Assembly (NCBI GenBank): GCA_019237945.1
Contig: JAFAOG010000614.1
Span: 1-32,186, forward strand
Source: Deltaproteobacteria bacterium
GTDB lineage: Bacteria > Myxococcota_A > Polyangia > Haliangiales > Haliangiaceae
Direction: 5' to 3'
Length of the DNA stretch: 32,186 bases
Shown here: one piece after another, positions 3,936-25,535 of the stretch
How the letters are laid out: every line of letters begins with the position of its first letter
Position numbering within the stretch: position 1 is the stretch's first letter
The notes under the pieces: model-generated
The model's input: the letters and a program-made list of their open reading frames with translations, nothing else
Database searches by the model: none
What the model was told of the DNA's origin: nothing
Program-made: the position numbers and the translations under genes

Positions 3936-6900
3936 ATGGGGATTCGCGCCACGCTAGCGTGGCTCGTGCTGTTGATCTGCGGCTGTTACTCGCCGCAGCT
4001 CACCCATTGTCCCGACGTTGACTGCCCGAGCAACGAGGTCTGCGACAACCACGGCGGCTGCGCGTTTCCACAGCAGCTCGCGCCGTGCATGGGCCAGGTC
4101 GACGGCACGTCGTGCGCCTACACCGACCAGACCGGCAAGGATGTCACCGGCGCATGTCAGGCCGGGCTCTGCGTCCCACTCGCGTGCGGCGACGGCATCC
4201 TGACGAGCGACGAGGTCTGCGACGACGGCAACAACCTGTCGGGCGACGGCTGCTCCGCCGATTGCAAGTCGCTCGAGACGTGCGGCAACGGCATCACCGA
4301 CAGCGCAAAGGGCGAGCAGTGCGACGACGGCAACACGACCGACGCCGACGGCTGCCAGCACGACTGCAAGCTGCCTCGGTGCGGCGACGGCGTGACCGAT
4401 ACGCAGCTCGACGAGCAGTGCGACGCGGGCGGCTCCAACAGCGACACGCCGAACGCGCCCTGCCGCACGAACTGCCAGCTGCCGCGCTGCGGCGACCACA
4501 TCGTCGACACCACGAACGGCGAGGTCTGCGACGACGGCAACAACGCGAGCGCTGACGGTTGCTCCGGCGACTGCAAATCGAACGAGACGTGCGGTAACGG
4601 CATCGTCGACGCGCTCGCCGGCGAGGTCTGCGACGACGGCAACACGACGTCCGGCGACGGCTGCTCGGCCGACTGCCGCTCGATCGAGGTGTGCGGCAAC
4701 GGCGTCGTCGACGTCGGCCTCGGCGAGGTCTGCGACGACGGCAACACGGTGTCGGGCGACGGCTGCTCGAGCGATTGCCGGTCGCGCGAGGTGTGCGGCA
4801 ACGGCATCGTCGACACGATCGACGAGCAGTGCGACCTCGGCGGCGCCAACAGCGACCTGCCCGATCATCCGTGTCGCTCGACGTGCAAGCTGCAGGCGTG
4901 TGGCGACGGCATCGTAGATCCCGGCCACGGCGAGCACTGCGACAACGGCGCGGCGAACAGCACGCTGCCTGATGCGTGCCGCCCGAACTGCGAGCTGCCG
5001 CGCTGTGGCGACGGCATCCAGGATTCGACCGAGGTCTGCGACGACGGGAACACGAACAACGGCGACGGCTGCTCGTCGGACTGCCACTCGCTCGAGGTCT
5101 GCGGCAACGGCATCATCGACACGTCGAAGGGCGAGCAGTGCGACAACGGCGCGTCGAACTCCAACCAGCCGAACGCGACCTGCCGCGGCGACTGCACGCG
5201 CCAGAAGTGCGGTGACTCGATCGTCGACAACGTGTTCGGCGAGCTGTGCGACAACGGCGCCGCGAACTCGAACGCGCCCAACGCCGCGTGCCGCGTCAAC
5301 TGCACGCCGAAGCGCTGCGGCGACGGGATCAAAGATACCGGCGAGGTCTGCGACGACGGCAACGTCGTGTCCGGCGACGGCTGCTCCGCGGACTGCAAGT
5401 CGCTCGAGACCTGCGGCAACGGCATCATCGACCTCGCGAAGGGCGAGCAGTGCGATGCGGGCGGCGCGAACTCCAATGCGCCGAATGCGCCGTGCCGCAC
5501 GAACTGCAAGCTCCCCGCGTGCGGCGACTCGGTCACCGATACGTCGCTCGGCGAGCTGTGCGATCAGGGCGCGGCCAACTCGAACAACCCGAACGCGACG
5601 TGCCGCACGAACTGCCAGCCGCAGCGCTGCGGTGACACGATCACGGACAACACGAAGGGCGAGGTCTGCGACGACGGTAACAACGTCGGCGGCGACGGCT
5701 GCTCGCCGGACTGCAAGTCGAACGAGACGTGCGGCAACTCGATCGTGGACGCGATCAAGGGCGAGCAGTGCGACGCGGGCGCGAGCAACTCGAACAATCC
5801 GAACGCGCCGTGCCGTCCGACGTGCAAGCTGCCGACGTGCGGCGACGCGATCACCGACACCGTGCTCGGCGAGGCGTGCGATCTGGGCGCGAGCAACTCG
5901 AACAACCCGAACGCGACGTGCCGCACGAACTGCCAGCCGCAGCGCTGCGGCGACACGATCGTCGACAACACGAAGGGCGAAGTCTGCGACGACGGCAACG
6001 TCACCGCGGGCGACGGCTGCTCGGCGGACTGCAAGTCGAACGAGACGTGCGGCAACGGCATCATCGACATCGTCAAGAACGAGCAGTGCGACAACGGCGG
6101 CCTCAACTCGAACGCACCGAACGCGACGTGCCGTACCACCTGCAAGCGCCAGGCGTGCGGCGATTCGATCGTCGACACCGCGTTCGGCGAGACGTGCGAC
6201 CTCGGCGCCGCCAACTCGAACGCACCGAACGCGACGTGCCGCTCGAACTGCACGGTCGCGCGCTGCGGCGACGGCATCGTCGATCCGGCCGCCGGCGAGG
6301 TGTGCGACGACAGCAACAACACCAGCGGCGACGGCTGCTCCGGTGACTGCAAGTCGCTCGAGACGTGCGGCAACGGCATCGTCGACGTCGCCAAGGGCGA
6401 GCAGTGCGACGACGGAAACGCGATCAACAATGATGCGTGCCACAACAACTGCACGCTGCCGCGCTGCGGCGACGGCGTGGTCGACTTCAACGAGCAGTGC
6501 GACGCGGGCGCGGCGAACTCGAACGCGCCGAACGCGGCGTGCCGCACGAACTGCACGCCGGCGCGCTGCGGTGACGGCATCGTCGACACGACGCGCCCCG
6601 AGGTCTGCGACGACGGCAACAACACGGCCGGCGACGGCTGCTCGGCGGACTGCACGTCGAACGAGACGTGCGGCAACGGCATCGTCGATCTGATCAAGGG
6701 CGAGCAGTGCGACGACGGCAACCGCCGCGGGCGCGACGGCTGCAGCGCGTGCAAGATCGAGAGTGCGATCGCGGTGAAGCCGGGCGGCTCGCCGGGTGGG
6801 CGCCACAGCGGGATCCTCGTCTACGACGCCGGACGCCAGCGCGTCGTGATGTTCGGCGGCTACACCGTTGGCGGTCCGATCGGCGACACGTGGGAGTGGG

Positions 6901-8938
6901 ACGGCACGAGCTGGACGCAGATGTTCCCGGCGCACTCGCCGTTCCCGCGGTTCGATTCGGCGGCCGCGTACGATGCGGTTCGCCATCGCGTCGTCCTGTT
7001 CGGCGGCTTCAGCGCGAACTACGGCGGAGCGCTCCAGGACACCTGGGAGTACGACGGCGTCGACTGGACGCAGAAGAGCACGGCGACATTGCCGCCCGAC
7101 CGCGGCGGTGCCGCCATGGCGTTCGACGCGAATGCCGGCAAGCTCGTGATGTTCGGCGGCTGCACCGGCTTCAACACCGACAACTCGCCGTCGAGCCCGC
7201 TCCAGGACACGTGGACGTACGACGGCACGAACTGGACCTTGATGAGCCCGACGACGAAGCCGTCGGCGCGCGCCGGCATGCGCATGGTGTTCGATTCGGT
7301 CGGCAAGATCGTCTTGATGTTCGGCGGTCGCGACACCAAGAACGGCGCCGCGAACCACATGTGGAAGTGGAACGGGGCGAACTGGACGGACGCCGGCGCC
7401 GCCGCGGGCCCGTTCTCCGACTACGACACGACCGGCATGACGTTCGACGCGAACCGCAGCAAGGTCGTCGCGTGGGACGGCTCGAGCGGCGGCACGACCT
7501 GGGAGTGGAGCGGCGCCGCGTGGACCGCCGTCGCGGGCGGTGCGCCAACGGTCCCTGCGACGGCGCCGATGTTCCGCGGCTACATCCAGCTCACGTACGA
7601 CGCCGCGCACAAGCAGGTCGTGCTGTATGGCGGCGACCAGGGCGACTACATCCCGGCGTTCAATGCACCGAGCCCGCCCGGCCCGCTGTTTTACAGCGAC
7701 ACGTGGCTGCGCACCGGCGCGGCGTGGGCGCAAGCTCCCGCGTTCTCCGAACCGAGCGCGCGCGTGCGTGCGGCGGCCGGCTACGATCCGCTGCGTCGCC
7801 GCATCGTCATGTTCGGCGGCCAGACGACCGCGCGGCGCAAGTTCGGCTGCGGCGCGAGCGGCTGCATGCTCAACGACACGTGGGAATGGGACGGCGCGAA
7901 GTGGGCGAGCGTCGCGGCGACGACGCCTCCCGCCGTGCGCGCGGGCGATCAGCTCGACTACGACACGAGCGCGCGCGTGATGCGTCTGTACGGCGGCGAC
8001 TCGTACTCGTCGACGGGACCGACCGACACGACGTACACCGACGTCTACAGCTACAACGGCGCGGCGTGGACCGCGCAGGCCTCCGCGGGGCGCGCGAGCG
8101 TGCGGCAGTCGGCGATGGCGTACGACGCGAGCGGCAACAAGCTCGTCACGTTCGGCGGCTATGCGATCCCGAGCGGCACCGCGAGCAACGAGACGTGGAC
8201 ATGGTCGGCGAGCGGCGGCTGGGTCAAGCTGACGCCGACGTCGCCCCCGGCCGGCCGCGACGACACCGCGCTCGCGTACGACCCGGTTCGCCAGCGTTCG
8301 GTGCTGTTCAGCGGCAACCCGCGCGACGGCTCGAACCTGACCGACGTCTACGAGTTCGACGGCGCGCAGTGGTCGCGGTTCACGCCGAGTGGGCCCTCGG
8401 CACGTCGCGGGCTCCGCGCGTTCTACAACCCCGACTCGCAGCGCGTGACGTTCTTCGGGAACAACCCGGGCGCGAGCGAGGACATCTGGGAGTGGGGCGC
8501 CGCCGGCTGGACGCAGCGCCAGCTCACGAACACCGTCGCACCGCGCTACCAGTCGGCGGTTGCGTACGACGCCGCGAACCACGCGATCGTCATGTTCTCC
8601 GGCCGCGATGCGACGTCGTTCGCGCCGGTCGCCTCGACGACCGTCATCAAGTTCCAGTCGAACACGACCGTCGAGTCGTGCACGTCGGCGGCGCTCGACT
8701 ACGACGGCGACGGCCTCGCGGGCTGCGCCGACGATGACTGCTGGAGCGTGTGCACGCCGCTGTGCCCGCCTGGCATCACGTGCCCCGGCACCGCGCCGAA
8801 GTGCGGCGACGGTACGTGCAGCGGCTTCGAGGACTGCAACATCTGCCCGGCCGACTGCGGCGCGTGCCCCGGCGGCAAGTGCGGCGACTTCCACTGCGAC
8901 GGCGGCGAGACCCACGCCACGTGCCCGAACGATTGCTG

Positions 8939-8939
<1 letters not shown>
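3936..8939 (+). CDS. Giant cysteine-rich repeat / kelch surface lipoprotein, copy 1
   Basis: A 1667-residue exported protein. Residues 1-17 (..VLLICGC) form a lipoprotein signal with the lipidated Cys at 17, followed by YSP and a Cys-rich linker. Residues 84-938 hold 25 tandem repeats of 32-36 residues of the DUF4215 / Myxococcus cysteine-rich type ([24 protein letters not shown]). From about 950 to 1570 come 12 kelch-like blades of the form R..A.AYD...R.VMFGG...DTWEWDG..WT, enough for two six-bladed propellers. The C-terminus (about 1581-1667) has a DYDGDG calcium-binding-like loop and two CGDG.C....C..CP.DC modules; there is no MYXO-CTERM or other C-terminal anchor. It ends in TGATG with its paralogue. 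It probably sits on the outer surface, binding a partner or matrix; the ligand is unknown. The domain reading is firm, the function inferred. Confidence 0.9.
3948..3963. promoter_or_regulatory. Perfect 16-bp palindrome at codons 5-10
   Basis: GCCACGCTAGCGTGGC is fully self-complementary and lies 12 nt inside the first giant lipoprotein gene, just downstream of its proposed promoter. It could be a dimeric repressor site or an mRNA hairpin near the start. It could also be chance in GC-rich DNA. Confidence 0.3.
4185..6755 (+). repeat. Array of 25 DUF4215 cysteine-rich coding repeats (copy 1)
   Basis: Twenty-five in-frame repeats of about 100 nt. Repeats 2-4 and 7-24 follow a three-repeat order: type A (CGNGIVD..KGEQCD.G), type B ([25 protein letters not shown]) and type C ([26 protein letters not shown]), giving a period of about 306 nt. 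Repeats 1, 5, 6 and 25 stand outside the triplets. Confidence 0.9.
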
Positions 8940-13896: not shown

Positions 13897-16881
13897 ATGG
13901 CCGCCGATCCGGACGACGACGAATTCGCGCGCACGGCAACGGCGCCCGATACGCAGGCGTCGCCGAAGGAGGCGCTGCCGCCGCTCGGCGACAAGCTCGG
14001 CCGCTACAAGCTCGAGCGACCGCTCGGGATCGGCGGGATGGGCGTCGTGCACTGCGCGTTCGATCCGGATCTCGAGCGGCGCGTCGCGCTCAAGGTCCTG
14101 CGCAAGGTCGATCGCAGCGACGAGGCGCGGCTGCGGCTGCTGCGCGAGGCCCGCGCGCTCGCGAAGATCACGCATCCGAACGTCGTCAATGTCCACGAGG
14201 TCGGCACCGCCGACGGCCGCGACTATGTCGCGATGGAGCTGATCGACGGCGACTCGCTCGATGCGTGGCTCAAGGCGCAGCCGCGATCGACGGCCGACAT
14301 CATCGCCGCGTTCATCTCGGCGGGGCGCGGTCTCGCGGCGGCGCATGCCGCGGGCCTCGTGCATCGCGACTTCAAGCCGCACAACGTGCTGCGCGATCAG
14401 CACGGCCGCATCGTCGTCACCGATTTCGGGCTCGCGCGCGGCGTCGAGAAGGACGGGCAGGACATCTCGTTCGACACGACGCTGCCGCCGGGGACCGCGG
14501 CCGACGAGCTGACGAAGACGGGCTCGCTGCTCGGCACGCCCGCGTACATGGCTCCCGAGCAGTGGGATCACGGGCCCGTGGGGCCGGCCGCGGATCAGTT
14601 CGGGTTCTGCGTCGCGCTGTGGGAAGCGCTCGCCGGCGAGCGTCCGTTCAAGGGCGACACGTTCGAGGACCTCAAGCACGAGATCCAGCGCGGCCCCGAC
14701 GAGCTCGACGTGTCGAAGCTGCCGCGCCGGCTGCGCAAGCCGCTGCGCCGCGGGCTCGATCCGGATCCCGCGAAGCGCTATCCGAGCATGGATGCGTTGC
14801 TCGCGGCGCTGACCCGCGCCGAGCGGCGGCCGGGCGTCGCGGTCGTGATCGGCTCGGGCGCGATCGTCGCGGCGGCGACGTTGTACCTCGCGCTCTCGAA
14901 TCGCTCGACCGGTCCCGACTGCCGCGCGCCCGTGATCGATCCGGGGTTCTGGTCGGCGAATCGCGCCGCCGAGCTGGCGCGTGCCGATCAGGGGCCTGCG
15001 GCGGCTGCGATCCAGGCCGACTTCGACCGCTGGAAGGGCGCGCGCGCGAGGGCGTGCAGCGCGAACGTCGCGGACCGCGAGGCTCGGCTCGGCTGCCTCG
15101 ACGGCGTGCTCGCGCGGCTGTCGCTCGCGACCCAGGCGACGCTGGCGACGAAGGTGCCACGCGTCGAGACGGCGCAGATCCTCGTCGATCCGGCCGTGTG
15201 CGAGACGCCGCGGCCGCCACGCCTGATGCCGGCGACGTCGCCGGAGATGGTCGGCCTCGCGACGCACGTGCTCGAGAGCGGCCTGACGCGCGATCTGTTC
15301 GACGGCGCGGCCGCGGATGCACTGATCGCGAAGACGTCGGAGCCGTGCTCGTCGGCGGTCGCGCACCTGCTCGCGGTGTCGGCGCGCGAGAACGGCCTCG
15401 ATCGCGATCACGAGCTGGACGAGGCGGACCGGCTCGCGCAGCGCTGCGGCGATGACCGGCTGATCGCCGATGTCGCGATCGGCGAGGCCGTCGAGGTGAT
15501 GAGCGAGACCGACTCGCTGACGAACGAGCAGACCGGCAAGCTCAAGCGCGCGCAGGCGCTCACCGACGTCGTGGCACAGCGCGACCTGCAGTCCGATCTC
15601 GACGAGGTGCGCGCGACGATGGCGAGTCGCGCCGATGACGACGGCGAGGCGATCGCCCGCGAGACGGCCGCGATCGCCGGCTACGAGACGCGCGGACGTG
15701 TGCGCGCCCAGATCGCGGCCGGGCTGCGCCTGATCGCGTTCCAGGAGCTGCGCGGCCATCCCGAGGACCTCGCCGCCGTGCCGGCGCTGCTCGCGCAGTA
15801 CCGCGCGCTCGCGGTCAAGCACCTCGGCGAGCACGACGAGGCCGTACGCAACATCGACCTGACGATCGCGCAGGAAGACTTCTCGCGCGGCGACGTCCGC
15901 GGCGCGCACGCCAAGCTCGAGCACCTGATCGAGCCGATGCCGCTGCCGCACGCGCAGAAGATCACCGGGCGCGTCGTCGACGAGCAGGGCCAGCCGGTCG
16001 CGGGCGCCCTTGTCACCGCCGGCTCGCGCCTCGTCGGCGATGCGGTCTCGGCCGCGATGCCCTCCGACATCGCACGCAGCGCGACGACGAAGGCCGACGG
16101 CACGTTCGAGCTCCCCGAAGCGCCGGAGCGCGGTGCGATCGTCGCCGAGCTCGCCGGCAAGCGTTCGGTCGCGCAGAAGCTCGCGAACAACCTGACGCTC
16201 CAGCTCCAGCCGACCACGCACATCGAGGGCAAGGTCGATCTGCACGGCGTCCCCGGCGAGACGGTCGGGCTCTCCGCACATTCGACCGCGCAGGGCGTCA
16301 CCGTGCCGTACGCGGTGACCGCGCCGATCCTCGCCGACGGCTCGTTCGTGCTCGACGGCCTGCCGCGCGGCAAGATCTCGATCTCGATCGGCCGCGCGAG
16401 CGCCGCGACGTTCCTGCTCGCGGGCACCGAGGTCGATGCGACGGGCGACAGCGTGCGCGGCGTCCAGATCTCGCTCGGCGGCGGCGCGCGCGTGATCCAC
16501 GTGATCGTGCGCAGCACGGTGGCGTCGCGCGTTCCGAGCGCGGAGGTGTTCGTGCTGCCGGGCCACGTCGCGTCGGCGAGCCTGCTGTCGATGGTCGAGC
16601 TCCTCAAGACCTCGAACGTCCGCTCGGCGCGTCAGCTCGAGGGCGAATCCGCGCCCAAGCCGGTGCTCGCGCAGATGAAGGCGGGCGACATGTACGCGAC
16701 GGTTCGCGACGTCCCCGATGGCGCGGCCAGCGCGTGCGCACTCGGCCTCCCGGATCGCAGCGACCCCACCATGAAGCACATCGACGAGCACCTCGATCGG
16801 ATCGAGGTCAAGTGCGTCGATATCCCGAAGGATGCCGAGGTCGTCGTCGTCGAAGTCCCGCCGTTTCCGCGGATCGACTAA
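13897..16881 (+). CDS. Transmembrane Ser/Thr protein kinase with carboxypeptidase-regulatory-like ectodomain
   Basis: A 994-residue Hanks-type kinase. The N-terminal kinase domain (about 36-310) has the Gly loop GIGGMGVVH (from 44), the ATP-binding Lys at 66 (VALKVL), HRDFKPHN with catalytic Asp 158, DFG at 176 and the substrate-loop APEQ at 219; all catalytic residues are present. A single membrane helix follows (VAVVIGSGAIVAAATLYLAL, about 313-332). The region outside the membrane is long. Residues about 340-680 are mostly helical with scattered Cys. From about 689, ITGRVVDEQGQPVAGALV..TKADGTFEL begins a carboxypeptidase-regulatory-like beta domain, and HIEGKVDLHGVPGETV...LADGSFVLDGLPRGK looks like a second. 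It lies 14 nt after the second giant lipoprotein, so it is likely co-transcribed. Its signal and targets are unknown. The stop overlaps the convergent gene by 4 bp. Confidence 0.92.
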   Translation: MAADPDDDEFARTATAPDTQASPKEALPPLGDKLGRYKLERPLGIGGMGVVHCAFDPDLERRVALKVLRKVDRSDEARLRLLREARALAKITHPNVVNVHEVGTADGRDYVAMELIDGDSLDAWLKAQPRSTADIIAAFISAGRGLAAAHAAGLVHRDFKPHNVLRDQHGRIVVTDFGLARGVEKDGQDISFDTTLPPGTAADELTKTGSLLGTPAYMAPEQWDHGPVGPAADQFGFCVALWEALAGERPFKGDTFEDLKHEIQRGPDELDVSKLPRRLRKPLRRGLDPDPAKRYPSMDALLAALTRAERRPGVAVVIGSGAIVAAATLYLALSNRSTGPDCRAPVIDPGFWSANRAAELARADQGPAAAAIQADFDRWKGARARACSANVADREARLGCLDGVLARLSLATQATLATKVPRVETAQILVDPAVCETPRPPRLMPATSPEMVGLATHVLESGLTRDLFDGAAADALIAKTSEPCSSAVAHLLAVSARENGLDRDHELDEADRLAQRCGDDRLIADVAIGEAVEVMSETDSLTNEQTGKLKRAQALTDVVAQRDLQSDLDEVRATMASRADDDGEAIARETAAIAGYETRGRVRAQIAAGLRLIAFQELRGHPEDLAAVPALLAQYRALAVKHLGEHDEAVRNIDLTIAQEDFSRGDVRGAHAKLEHLIEPMPLPHAQKITGRVVDEQGQPVAGALVTAGSRLVGDAVSAAMPSDIARSATTKADGTFELPEAPERGAIVAELAGKRSVAQKLANNLTLQLQPTTHIEGKVDLHGVPGETVGLSAHSTAQGVTVPYAVTAPILADGSFVLDGLPRGKISISIGRASAATFLLAGTEVDATGDSVRGVQISLGGGARVIHVIVRSTVASRVPSAEVFVLPGHVASASLLSMVELLKTSNVRSARQLEGESAPKPVLAQMKAGDMYATVRDVPDGAASACALGLPDRSDPTMKHIDEHLDRIEVKCVDIPKDAEVVVVEVPPFPRID

Positions 16882-19288: not shown

Positions 19289-19651
19289 TCAGGTCGAGCG
19301 GTCGGTGCGGGGCGCCTTGTCGAGGGCGTCCCAGGCGTCCTTGCGTGCGGCCTCGAGGCGCTTCATCGCCTCGGTGGCCTTCGCCTCGTCGGGATCGCGC
19401 AGCGCGTTCTTCGCCTCGTCGAAGCGCATCTGCAAGAGCGTCAGCTTCTCGGTGACGCGCGCGCGGGCGGCCTCGGTCAGCGGGAACACGCGCGCCATCG
19501 TGTTGATGATCACCGGCTGGGTCGCGATCACCTGGAGCTCCGCTTCGAGCGAGCGCACGCGCAGCTCGCGTCGAGCATCGGCCGAGGCAGTCTGCGGAGC
19601 AGCCGGCTTGCTGCACGCCACGGCGGCGAGAGCGGCGAGTAACGTGCGCAT
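19289..19651 (-). CDS. Small helical lipoprotein next to a C39-like peptidase
   Basis: A 120-residue lipoprotein. MRTLLAALAAVAC is the signal, with the lipidated Cys at 13. The rest is a short Ala/Pro/Thr linker and a charged helical region (LRVRSLEAELQVIA..., ARARVTEKLTLLQMRFDEAKNALRDPDEAKATEAMKRLEAARKDAWDAL) that probably forms a coiled coil. No known domain. ATG 19651 is chosen for the signal peptide; a longer frame upstream is the shadow of the peptidase gene. Only 2 nt separate it from that gene, so they are surely co-transcribed. It probably sits on the same membrane as the peptidase and may scaffold it; this is inference from position. Confidence 0.8.
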   Translation of the reverse strand: MRTLLAALAAVACSKPAAPQTASADARRELRVRSLEAELQVIATQPVIINTMARVFPLTEAARARVTEKLTLLQMRFDEAKNALRDPDEAKATEAMKRLEAARKDAWDALDKAPRTDRST

Positions 19652-19653
19652 GA

Positions 19654-20244
19654 CTATTCCTTGGAGATCGTCGAGTGGTCGCCGGTGACGACGAGCGCCG
19701 GATAACCGGCCGCCTTCCACTCGAGGTCGAGCACGTCACGCGAGCGGCGCATCCATTCACCGCTCGCCGGATCGATCGTGACGACCGTTCCGTCGTGTGG
19801 ATTCATCGCGACCGCGACTTCGTAGTGCGAGCGATTGTGTCCACGATCAAAAGGGAGCATCAGGCCCAGCAGCACGGGCCGCCCGGAGGCAAGCTCGTGC
19901 TGCAGGTCCTGTGTCGAGGCGCGCAAGGCGAAGGCATCGAGCCCTCGATCACGCGCCAGATCGCGCAGCGCTCCGAGCTTCACGCCTTTCTCCGACGGTG
20001 GAATCCGGTGCGCGAGGTCGTCGACAGACCAGTGGCGCCCCCAGGCGCCGGCGACCATCGCAAGTGCAGCGAGACCGCAATCGGACTCCTGCTTTTGCCG
20101 GACCACGGGTGTCGGAGCGGCGCGGAGCCAGGACGAATCGAGCTGGGCGGGCGTGACCGGCCGCGCGCCACCCGTGTAGGGAAGCTGGCATCCAGTCAGG
20201 CTGACCAGCGCGACGATGACCGCCGCGACGATCGTGCTCTTCAT
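19654..20244 (-). CDS. C39-like cysteine peptidase lipoprotein
   Basis: A 196-residue exported peptidase. The signal ends in SLTGC (lipidated Cys 19). The peptidase motif VRQKQESDCGLAALAMV carries the oxyanion Gln 50 and catalytic Cys 56; RSHYEVAV supplies His 140 and TIDPASG supplies Asp 158, the full C39 triad. C39 enzymes usually cut after a double glycine in leader peptides and are usually fused to ABC exporters; this one is a free lipoprotein, so it acts outside the cytoplasm. The gene immediately upstream, 9 nt away, encodes a secreted 89-residue protein with a Gly-Gly pair before its hydrophobic tail, an obvious candidate substrate. Fold and triad are firm; the substrate is inferred. 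Confidence 0.88.
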   Translation of the reverse strand: MKSTIVAAVIVALVSLTGCQLPYTGGARPVTPAQLDSSWLRAAPTPVVRQKQESDCGLAALAMVAGAWGRHWSVDDLAHRIPPSEKGVKLGALRDLARDRGLDAFALRASTQDLQHELASGRPVLLGLMLPFDRGHNRSHYEVAVAMNPHDGTVVTIDPASGEWMRRSRDVLDLEWKAAGYPALVVTGDHSTISKE

Positions 20245-20253
20245 CGGCGTTGC

Positions 20254-20523
20254 TTAGACGAGGATGAGGAGCAGGAGAAGCAGCACGATCAGCGCGCCGC
20301 CCGAGATCCCGATCACGACAACGCTGCCGCCTTCGTAGTTGGCAGCCTGCTTGTCCTGTTGCTCGCGCGCCGCGTAGCTCGTCGAGTCTTTCTGCGCGGC
20401 CGGCGCCGGCGCCTGGACAGTCATGGTCTCCGCCGCGACGGGCTTGACCGGGTCAGCGAACGCCGCGGCCGGCGCGAGCGCCAGCGACGCGGCAAGGGCG
20501 AGAGAAGCAGAGCGAAGCAACAT
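20254..20523 (-). CDS. Small secreted protein with Gly-Gly motif and hydrophobic C-terminal tail
   Basis: An 89-residue protein. Residues 1-23 form a signal peptide (..ALAPAAAFA, cleavage before DP). Residues 24-63 are polar and Ala/Pro/Gln-rich (..STSYAAREQQDKQAANY). EGGSVVVIGISGG follows, with Gly-Gly at 65-66, then an uninterrupted hydrophobic tail to the end (LIVLLLLLLILV, membrane segment about 67-89) without a basic cap. The layout of signal peptide, short polar body, GG and C-terminal membrane helix resembles sorted proteins of the GlyGly-CTERM kind, except for the missing basic cluster. It is followed at 9 nt by a C39-like peptidase, a class that cuts after Gly-Gly. ATG 20523 has the strongest Shine-Dalgarno noticed here (AGGAG, 9 nt away), locked in a hairpin. 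Function unknown. Confidence 0.82.
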   Translation of the reverse strand: MLLRSASLALAASLALAPAAAFADPVKPVAAETMTVQAPAPAAQKDSTSYAAREQQDKQAANYEGGSVVVIGISGGALIVLLLLLLILV

Positions 20524-23393: not shown

Positions 23394-24697
23394 TGAAGAC
23401 CTGGCGCAACCTGCCACCGGCGCTGCTCGCGATGTTCGTGATCGAGCTGCTCTCGCTCGTCGTGTTCACGACCTACGAGCTGACGCACTCGTTCGACGCC
23501 TCGGCGGTTCGCTTCGACCTGACGGCGCGCGGGTTCTGGCTCGCGGCCGATGTGCTCGGCGTGTTCGGTGCGCTCGCGCTCGCGCGCCGGCTCGCGGGGT
23601 CGGCGGCCACCGGGTTCCGGATCGTCGCGGCGGGATTCGCGCTGTCGCTCGCCGGGCAGATCGTGTGGGACGCCGTGTGGATGCTCCATTCCAGTGGCAG
23701 CAGCAGCAGCTTCGAGACGCTGCACGAGCTCAGCGAGTGGTCGTGGTTCGTGCTCAAGCTGATCCCGCTCGCCGGCATCGCGGTCGCGACCGCATCGACG
23801 CACCGGCGTATCGCGGTGGCCGCGGTCGTGGCGATCGTCGTATGTGATCCGGCGCCGTTCCTGTCGCACCACATGTGGGGCTGGGTCGTTTCGGGATGGA
23901 AGTCGCAGATGCTCCTCTTCGAGGTGCTGCGCCTCGCGTCGCTCGCGGTGCTCGCCGTCGGTTCGCTCGCGCTCGCACCCGAGCCGTATCCGGCGCCGCC
24001 GACCGATGCCGTCCCCGGCTTTCACGCGATCGCGTCCGGTCTGTGGCTGCGCGTGATCGCGGCGTGCACGTTCGCGGGGTTGATGCTGCTGCTGTTGCTC
24101 GGCAAGGCGGGCGACGGCGCGATGGGCGTGTTCAAGCTCGCGACAATCTCGGTCGCGGTCGTCAACGCGATCTCGTTCTTGATCGTGGCGCGCGGCGCGC
24201 TGACCACGCTCGTTCGCGACATGCCGGGGCCGTGGATGCTCGTCGCGGGAATCGCAAACCTGTGGTGTCTCGGCGTCACGCTCGGCCAGCTCCCGTCGAC
24301 GTACGAGATGCTCTACGGCGACAGCCTCCGCTACGGCGGCGCGGATGCAATGGAGCGCGCGCAGGCGCTGTCGATCATCGCGCCGCTCGTCGCGGTCGGG
24401 GCGGTTGCCGCCATCGCGATCGCGATCGCCGGCTTCGCAGCCACGCGCGGCCTCGAACAGCTGCGTGCGGAGGCGCAAGGCAAGGGGCTCGGCTTCGTGT
24501 GCCTGATGGTCGCCGCGATCGGCATCCAGCAGTGGCTGCTGCCGCAGCAGACGTCCGAGGGCAGCATGATGTTCTTCATGCTCACCGCCGCCGGCTGCTC
24601 GCTCGGCGCGACCGTGATGATGGCGCGGCTGTGCACGCGCGCCGCCGACTCGCTGCACGCCGAGACCGCGCTGCCTACCGCGACGCTGCGTTCTTGA
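23393..24697 (+). CDS. Unrecognised polytopic membrane protein
   Basis: A 434-residue integral membrane protein with about ten to twelve hydrophobic segments (for example LLAMFVIELLSLVVFTTYEL near the N-terminus, LAGIAVATAS, VIAACTFAGLMLLLLL, LVAVGAVAAIAIAIAGFAA). No family motif is recognised. ATG 23393 overlaps the acyl-CoA dehydrogenase stop (TGATG), so expression is probably coupled. Loops contain short Ser runs (SSGSSSS) and HELSEWSW. The 3' end overlaps the convergent mepA gene by 23 bp. It could be a transporter or sensor for the same metabolic unit, but nothing in the sequence shows that. Confidence 0.8.
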   Translation: MKTWRNLPPALLAMFVIELLSLVVFTTYELTHSFDASAVRFDLTARGFWLAADVLGVFGALALARRLAGSAATGFRIVAAGFALSLAGQIVWDAVWMLHSSGSSSSFETLHELSEWSWFVLKLIPLAGIAVATASTHRRIAVAAVVAIVVCDPAPFLSHHMWGWVVSGWKSQMLLFEVLRLASLAVLAVGSLALAPEPYPAPPTDAVPGFHAIASGLWLRVIAACTFAGLMLLLLLGKAGDGAMGVFKLATISVAVVNAISFLIVARGALTTLVRDMPGPWMLVAGIANLWCLGVTLGQLPSTYEMLYGDSLRYGGADAMERAQALSIIAPLVAVGAVAAIAIAIAGFAATRGLEQLRAEAQGKGLGFVCLMVAAIGIQQWLLPQQTSEGSMMFFMLTAAGCSLGATVMMARLCTRAADSLHAETALPTATLRS

Positions 24698-25535
24698 ATC
24701 GCACGTGCAGGTGGTTCGCGTGATTGGGCCAGTGGCGCACGAGCCCGCTCGTCGCATCGCGCCCGGCCGGGTATTGCAGCACGCGCGCGAGCTCGTCCTC
24801 GTCGGTGCCGTGGGCGCGCGCCCACTCGTACAGCCGCTTCTGCACGCCGTAGTCGAGGAACATGATCTGGACGCCGTCACTCGTGTCGGCGGTGCGCGCG
24901 AACGCGGTCACGAGCGCCCACGTCGCGGCGAGGTCGAGATCCGCGCCCGCATCCTCGAAGCCGTGCGGCGCGTGGCGGAAGTAGAAGCCGACGTCGACGT
25001 CGTGCCCGGTGCGATGCGACACGTGCCCGGCGAGCGCGCCGCCGTGCTCCGCCGATAGATCGCCGATCGCGAGGTCGTGCACGTCGGGGTACGCCGCGCG
25101 CACCTCGGCGACCGCCTGCCGCACGTACTCGACGACCGCGGGCGCTCCATACGCGCGCTGCGGCCGGCGCAGGTAATAGCCGTCGCCCGCCTCGAGCTTC
25201 TCGGCGTCGGTCAGCGTCGGGCTGGCGTGCGAGCTGCCGTCGAGGATCGACGCCCGCCACGGCTGCAGCCGGCTCGCGATGCGGCGCGCGTCGTCGCGGT
25301 CTTCGCGCACGCGGCCGTCGTCGCGCGGTGCGCGCGGGCTCGCGGGCGGCGCGAGTTGCGGGCTCGCGGGTTTGGAAGGCGGGGGCACTGGCGAGTCATC
25401 GACCCACGCGGTGCCATCGATCACGGCGAGCGCGGCGCGCGCCTTCTCGTCGTCGGTGCGCGCGCGGTGTTTGTGCGAGTCGGCCGCCGCACCGAGCGGG
25501 ACAGCAATCAGCAGGCAGACGAGCACACGGCGCAC
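24675..25535 (-). CDS. mepA: Penicillin-insensitive murein endopeptidase (MepA-like)
   Basis: A 286-residue periplasmic zinc enzyme that cuts the D-Ala to meso-diaminopimelate cross-links of peptidoglycan. The signal peptide is MRRVLVCLLIAVPLGAAA. A Pro-rich, charged linker (about 20-95) follows. The catalytic region has IGDLSAEHGGALAGHVSH.TGHDVDVGF (157-184), with metal ligands expected among H171, H174, H178 and D181, and the closing motif RHWPNHANHLHVRF (267-280). It starts at a GTG. It lies 61 nt downstream of the zinc-finger gene on the same strand. The linker is longer than in E. coli MepA. Family firm. Confidence 0.9.
   Translation of the reverse strand: MRRVLVCLLIAVPLGAAADSHKHRARTDDEKARAALAVIDGTAWVDDSPVPPPSKPASPQLAPPASPRAPRDDGRVREDRDDARRIASRLQPWRASILDGSSHASPTLTDAEKLEAGDGYYLRRPQRAYGAPAVVEYVRQAVAEVRAAYPDVHDLAIGDLSAEHGGALAGHVSHRTGHDVDVGFYFRHAPHGFEDAGADLDLAATWALVTAFARTADTSDGVQIMFLDYGVQKRLYEWARAHGTDEDELARVLQYPAGRDATSGLVRHWPNHANHLHVRFKNAASR

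Follow-up and report, generated by a model that had tools for sequence, protein, structure and literature searches.

A small protein, predicted to be exported, and the free C39 peptidase encoded next to it form a real, conserved gene pair, and we put the chance at about two in three that they are a dedicated periplasmic protease and its substrate, cut after a Gly-Gly motif. That estimate is for pair and cut jointly, and it is the cleavage that we infer; the protein architecture, the active-site residues, the gene order, the co-occurrence, the invariant GG and the homology of the peptidase to PA2778 were established directly. The pair lies in the window, by which we mean the whole 32,186-nucleotide stretch of DNA analysed, from a host genome of 8.13 Mb in 632 contigs. 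As we picture it, the small protein would leave the cytoplasm through Sec and stay anchored in the membrane by its C-terminal tail. The lipid-anchored peptidase could then bind a YAxRE...[F/Y]xGG segment just outside the membrane, as structure modeling suggests, and would cut after Gly66, a predicted position, parting the variable Ala/Pro-rich periplasmic portion from a membrane peptide of ~23 residues. The pair offers a concrete candidate substrate and cut site for a free periplasmic C39 peptidase, in a two-gene operon testable in E. coli.

The Gly-Gly tail and its pairing with the peptidase

Three genes on the minus strand occupy positions 19289-20523, separated by 9 nt (gene 1 to gene 2) and 2 nt (gene 2 to gene 3); the ORF listing and translations agree with the earlier note on this layout and on a first gene whose 89-residue product ends in EGG plus a hydrophobic tail. 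Gene 1 (20254..20523, minus strand, 89 aa) is the proposed substrate, a predicted exported single-span protein. It consists, in order, of a signal peptide (recognized by eye), a stretch rich in Ala and Pro, YAAREQQDKQAANYEGG, and a tail of 23 uncharged residues that follows ...NYEGG and ends the protein. On the same strand, the tail, which would span the membrane, is encoded at 20257..20325, the codons of Gly65-Gly66, after which the cut is predicted, at 20326..20331, and the proposed recognition segment Y50 to G66, with the motif YAxRE...[FY]xGG, at 20326..20376. Conservation, Ka/Ks ratios and AlphaFold2 confidence are the evidence for this segment.

The motif [F/Y]xGG is present in all 32 distinct tails collected (F in 24, Y in 8), with GG invariant and followed by 21-26 residues in every case. 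Because the tails of L113-L115 were found with GG in the search pattern and the orphan tails L109-L111 by profile, only the 26 tails picked by their hydrophobic end alone, with GG not required, test the motif without bias. In an alignment of 30 tails (A6), whose mean column identity is 32%, G65 and G66 never vary, and conservation is at least 90% at A23, P41, Y50 and E54, while the third base of the GG codons varies (GGC or GGT). The conservation of GG, on which the earlier note had made its reading depend, is more than chance. Against seven relatives, Ka/Ks was ~0.16 to 0.63 over residues 48-66 and ~0.24 to 1.45 over residues 24-47 (Ks saturated once for each stretch), the former being lower in six of the seven comparisons (barely for L073, not for L074); both stretches are short and residues 24-47 align poorly. 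The lack of a basic cap, which had also been remarked on, is real for the window protein and for 26 of the 32 tails, none of which has Lys or Arg among the last four residues, and does not extend to the other six, which carry one. Gene 1 matched neither NF033919 (PA2779) nor DUF6627 in NCBIfam and Pfam scans, and we found no family name for the tail-peptidase pair in either collection.

An ORF with [F/Y]xGG and a tail lies immediately upstream of a free peptidase at 29 of 30 distinct loci. These loci are the window, 22 named loci (L071-L092), L012, L013, L017, L024 (cut by a contig end) and L113-L115; L003-L011 and L014-L016 duplicate named loci and were counted once. The gap between the two genes is -4 to 15 nt at the 21 named loci with a tail, with some starts set by script or by eye. 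The sole exception, L077 (identical to L009 and L112; genome G004), has its tail on another contig (L109). Three orphan tails, L109, L110 and L111, have no peptidase within the 8.7-14 kb around them. Near the last of these, two genes with radical-SAM-like CxxxCxxC motifs, seen by eye (L111:3150-5505, G017:C78), lie ~1.0 and 2.2 kb from the orphan GG tail at 6537-6812. The peptidase family as used here takes in 22 of 38 loci, with E up to 2e-26; the 16 weaker loci (E 2e-10 or worse) were set aside, and L099, L101, L105, L106 and L107 among them fell outside the tail inspection. No GG-tail gene lies upstream of the distant free C39 proteins L093 (246 aa), L108 (192 aa) and L116 (a 254-aa frame in G071), and the pairing rule is limited to the peptidase family.

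The association extends across genomes. Within the order, 35 genomes were searched; 22 gave a peptidase match, of which 16 have a free full-length protein and six the domain only, in frames of 748-1149 aa; a profile of 16 tails, gene 1 included (A1), matched 17 genomes at E<1e-10. Sixteen genomes have both, one has the tail only, none has the peptidase only and 18 have neither (Fisher p 4e-9, kinship ignored), with tail absences resting on the best 149 or fewer candidates scored per genome. The tail-only genome, G014, has no free peptidase and is 59% complete. Since A1 was built from tails beside peptidases, this co-occurrence is partly circular, and 15 of the 16 genomes with both were known beforehand by adjacency; beyond these, the profile contributed G004, G014, second copies and the finding of no clear tail in the other 18 genomes. 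In a phylum sample of 377 genomes, the eight with free peptidases at E<1e-30 were also the eight with tails at E<=1e-5, scoring being limited to the best 13 tail candidates and the best 8 peptidase candidates of each genome; profile A6 holds the tails of those eight genomes or of their kin, and the tails of G304, G391 and G100 had previously been found by adjacency. Nine of the 17 peptidase matches in this sample were weak (E 6.8e-14 to 9.3e-11), six of them in frames of more than 700 aa and the others in frames of 254, 402 and 501 aa, the last two (G190, G180) left out of inspection. The question raised by the earlier note, whether EGG plus a hydrophobic tail co-occurs with free C39 lipoproteins, can be answered positively from both the adjacency and the distribution among genomes.

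Of the order's 17 tail-bearing genomes, 15 have one clear tail and two, G017 and G026, have two, so a many-to-one sorting signal is not supported. A search for such a signal with a profile covering the final ~41 residues (A8) gave one match in the window genome at E<=1. This near one-to-one pairing is unlike LPXTG, PEP-CTERM and GlyGly-CTERM, and it lends no support to the sortase-like logic once suggested for this locus, known sorting systems being many-to-one. Two genomes, fen_1103 and fen_1121, have two tail-peptidase pairs each, and there the paralogous tails and peptidases share their three nearest relatives. Over 22 pairs the mirror correlation was r 0.856, a value that none of 5000 permutations reached and that includes species descent. 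The coexistence of two pair subfamilies in one genome (L084/L089 in fen_1121, L085/L088 in fen_1103) provides a natural test of pair specificity.

The peptidase, its anchor and its fold

Gene 2 (19654..20244, minus strand, 196 aa) encodes a free C39 peptidase and predicted lipoprotein. It matches PF03412 (Peptidase_C39) at E 4.1e-15 with 56.2 bits against a gathering score of 22, and PF13529 at E 7e-9 with 36.8 bits against 24, and the Gln, Cys, His and Asp of the C39 active site are in place. In alignments of 15 and 22 sequences, window included, Q50 (20095-20097), C56 (20077..20079), H140 (19825..19827) and D158 (19771..19773) are invariant; Cys56 we take to be catalytic from the C39 family motif. 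The lipobox-like Cys19 (20188..20190) is also invariant in the 22 sequences. No ABC exporter is fused to gene 2, and the double-glycine-leader/exporter arrangement was not found for it, so that the previous description of a C39-like lipoprotein with an intact Cys/His/Asp triad and no fused exporter is borne out by Pfam and the alignments. The host genome has three PF03412 domains, the other two lying on different contigs, within ORFs of 868 and 1163 aa that are exporter-like by size. A tblastn search of plasmids (718 records) returned none covering 80% of the query; the 20 matches listed were all exporter domains.

The main doubt about the pair and its cut comes from the lipid anchor. None of the 22 named peptidases has Asp at position +2 of the lipobox Cys; in the peptidases inspected, this residue is Q, A, R, G, H, L, Y, T or I, with D in L012 only. 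By the E. coli +2 rule, such residues in place of Asp predict the outer membrane, which would set the enzyme apart from a tail in the inner membrane. The separation would be avoided if the cut precedes Lol transport, or if the rule differs in these bacteria.

Just past the lipobox, residues 19-26 of the peptidase read CQLPYTGG (20167-20190), in which Y-x-G resembles the proposed substrate motif; G25 is invariant and Y23 at least 90% conserved in 22 sequences. As a copy of that motif the stretch was rejected, hhalign finding no relation between the two. A pseudosubstrate is one idea for it, a chance likeness the other.

For the structure models, both window genes were read through the first stop, in their common frame, as a single AlphaFold2 chain (22 alignment rows, 8 with both genes). 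This joint chain had a mean pLDDT of 83 and a pTM of 0.74, with 162 of 289 residues at 90 or above. Blocks 41-50, 51-60 and 61-70 of the small protein scored 72, 94 and 81 in the joint chain and 62, 65 and 58 when modeled alone (20 rows). These confidence values are an indirect sign that the segment ahead of GG docks on the peptidase. The signal-peptide region shifted in the opposite direction (48-51 in the joint chain, 74-75 alone), and since the alignments differ as well, effects of chain and alignment are possible. A Foldseek search with gene 2 placed PCAT1 (7n87, E 1.2e-6), ComA (3k8u) and 6mpz, the structure of a double-glycine protease together with a leader peptide, near the top, and PeiR and phytochelatin synthase (2bu3, rank 17, solved as an acyl-enzyme) at lower ranks. 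A sequence profile of the peptidase found ComA and 6mpz at ~3e-7.

Related systems and alternative readings

The best NCBIfam match of gene 2 is PA2778 (NF033920), at 30.8 bits and E 1.9e-7 against a curated cut-off of 150; on this sequence comparison, gene 2 is related to PA2778 and falls outside the family as curated. Aligned by hhalign, the peptidase and PA2778 gave a probability of 99.2% over 186 columns. The same comparison of the tails with PA2779 (Pfam DUF6627, NCBIfam NF033919) gave 6.9% over 13 columns, GG included, too weak for direct homology. The PA2779 model matched none of the 35 genomes of the order and one of 30 tails at E 0.0044; it does match elsewhere, namely 46 of 185 genomes (45 over the cut-off) drawn from the class to which a Halieaceae record belongs. 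We retrieved and examined 30 of the 55 matched places. By pattern, a C39 gene lies 3' of PA2779 at 28 of these 30 loci (pairs counted from matched coordinates; a narrower pattern gave fewer). The ORF-start offset is between -59 and 98 nt at 27 of them and 512 nt at the other, and a loose pattern found a lipobox-like motif in all 28 C39 genes. Before its membrane helix PA2779 has PAG in 29 of 30 cases, then G in 16, S in 8, A in 5 and E in 1. GS is one of the sites cut by C39 peptidases, and PAG plus G, S or A fits their known cut sites. Sites with GG, and sometimes GA, are given in PMC5557850.

The PA2779/PA2778 pair and ours share a two-gene order, Gly-[Gly/Ser/Ala] before a membrane helix, a downstream C39 lipoprotein and homologous peptidases. 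They differ in that PA2779 has PAG[GSA] and a further stretch past the helix (TD..G.T..FPF), without detectable homology to the tails, and in that the PA2778 copy scanned has TPRs whereas the window peptidase has none. We read the window pair as a divergent form of the PA2779/PA2778 layout, which is widespread in bacteria and unstudied; if the cut is true, a function for PA2779/PA2778 would be predicted as well. Our literature search, mostly outside subscription journals, found no publication on the tail-peptidase pair or on PA2778/PA2779 function; PA2779 is mentioned as a neighbor of bswR (PMC3985676), and a gene of its family appears in a strong-promoter screen (PMC10155442). A broader proposal, which we rate a little short of an even bet, is a general envelope class in which a lipid-anchored C39 peptidase would cut a dedicated exported protein after Gly-[Gly/Ser/Ala], on the outer side of its C-terminal membrane helix, and free a membrane peptide. 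Two substrate families with no detectable homology, PA2779/DUF6627 in gammaproteobacteria and the undescribed YAxRE-[FY]xGG tails in Myxococcota, would then have converged on the cut site under homologous peptidases.

Three other systems invite comparison. FapD, of the Pseudomonas Fap amyloid system, is likewise a free periplasmic C39 peptidase, and an E. coli assay showed FapC secretion to depend on the catalytic Cys of FapD (PMC5557850). It differs in working with the fapABCDEF amyloid operon; the portions of PMC5557850 and PMC6173800 at hand name no substrate for it, and fap models had no match among the window genes scanned. The C39 domains of the bacteriocin exporters PCAT1 and ComA are similar to the peptidase in sequence and fold, and their family cuts at double glycine; they differ in being cytosolic and fused to ABC transporters. 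The substrates of such exporters have N-terminal leaders, whereas here GG borders the C-terminal membrane tail of a protein that carries a signal peptide. Finally, GlyGly-CTERM/rhombosortase and MYXO-CTERM/myxosortase also place a motif before a C-terminal membrane helix, but in them basic residues cluster at the end, one enzyme serves many substrates, and the enzymes are intramembrane proteases of other families. GlyGly-CTERM is defined by a Gly motif, a membrane helix and at least one basic residue at the end (PMC3237569); the window protein has no basic residue after GG and matched no such NCBIfam model up to E 1. MYXO-CTERM is defined by an invariant Cys motif and an Arg-rich end (PMC11980579), and the window tail has neither Cys nor Arg.

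Beyond the +2 residues, several observations weigh against a protease-substrate pair with a cut: GG could be kept for helix packing, the tails L109-L111 are orphans, L093, L108 and L116 occur without a GG-tail gene, and the tails and PA2779 are not detectably homologous. If the cut does occur, we lean towards the membrane peptide, and not the periplasmic piece, as its product, from the logic of C39 systems, where the part before GG is the leader, together with the weak constraint on residues 24-47. The same cut could instead shed the ectodomain, with the periplasmic ...[F/Y]xGG-COOH piece active and the tail a mere anchor. The conserved YAxRE...GG stretch would stay with the released piece, and the tail is of simple, anchor-like make-up; the conserved part, however, is needed for recognition by the protease anyway, and residues 24-47 of the piece are weakly constrained (six comparisons gave Ka/Ks of ~0.24 to 1.45; in the seventh, Ks was saturated). 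We regard shedding as unlikely, though deserving of some weight. C39 domains that only bind generally lose the Cys, while our 22 sequences keep Q, C, H and D without exception, which speaks against a partnership without proteolysis, in which the C39 domain would only hold the small protein and the GG segment would be a docking site in an envelope complex. The need for Cys in FapC secretion by another free periplasmic C39 peptidase, FapD (PMC5557850), points the same way. On the other side, the structure model suggests docking, and some C39 subsets are described as purely chaperones in PMC6173800; the odds of such a partnership seem to us rather low.

In re-anchoring, which the earlier note had considered, the peptidase would transfer the EGG carboxyl end to another acceptor in the manner of a sortase. 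Phytochelatin synthase among the fold matches lends it an argument, since its solved acyl-enzyme (2bu3, rank 17) indicates that related folds can hold an acyl intermediate. No sign of transpeptidation was found, however: 15 of 17 tail-bearing genomes of the order have one clear tail, third genes differ by clade and no constant acceptor gene lies next door, and 26 of 32 tails lack Lys or Arg at the end. We consider re-anchoring very improbable, and just as improbable that the GG tail is a rhombosortase or myxosortase substrate with a coincidental C39 neighbor. A rhombosortase model matched all 35 genomes, exceeding its cut-off of 84 bits in G004 (C413, 87.3) and G017 (C450, 84.8) and falling 3 bits below it in the window genome (G000:C403:11933-12355, 80.9). 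As G004 and G017 are two of the three genomes with orphan tails, the rhombosortase alternative is slightly raised for the orphans. The model also matched 14 of 14 control genomes below the cut-off, however, and it exceeds the cut-off in two of the 35 genomes against 17 of 35 with tails. Neither the Cys that marks MYXO-CTERM nor the basic residues that mark GlyGly-CTERM are present in the window tail, and adjacency to C39 at 29 of 30 loci argues against coincidence for either enzyme (the model search covered rhombosortase).

Third genes and other genes of the window

Gene 3 (19289..19651, minus strand) encodes a small helical protein of 120 aa from ATG, or 143 aa from an alternative GTG start, with no Pfam or NCBIfam family above cut-off. 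Its description as a lipoprotein is plausible by eye, with a very short signal peptide; its standing as a constant part of the locus did not hold up. Relatives occur at four of the 22 named loci, all 3' of the peptidase (the L071 copy is 50% identical), so that gene 3 is a clade-specific companion and is ruled out as an essential part. At five of the 22 named loci, in one clade of named Myxococcales loci, the third gene encodes another probable lipoprotein, which has a hydrophobic stretch rich in Gly and no Pfam family above cut-off (for example L086:3999-4517, L088:6480-7001 and L091:6495-7025).

Elsewhere in the window, a 1667-aa protein with DUF4215 and Kelch/beta-propeller matches, perhaps a surface protein, is encoded at 3936-8939 on the plus strand, and a Ser/Thr protein kinase (PF00069, 1.1e-37) with a carboxypeptidase-regulatory-like domain at 13897-16881 on the same strand. 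A protein of the penicillin-insensitive murein endopeptidase family (PF03411, 3e-13) is encoded at 24675-25535 on the minus strand.
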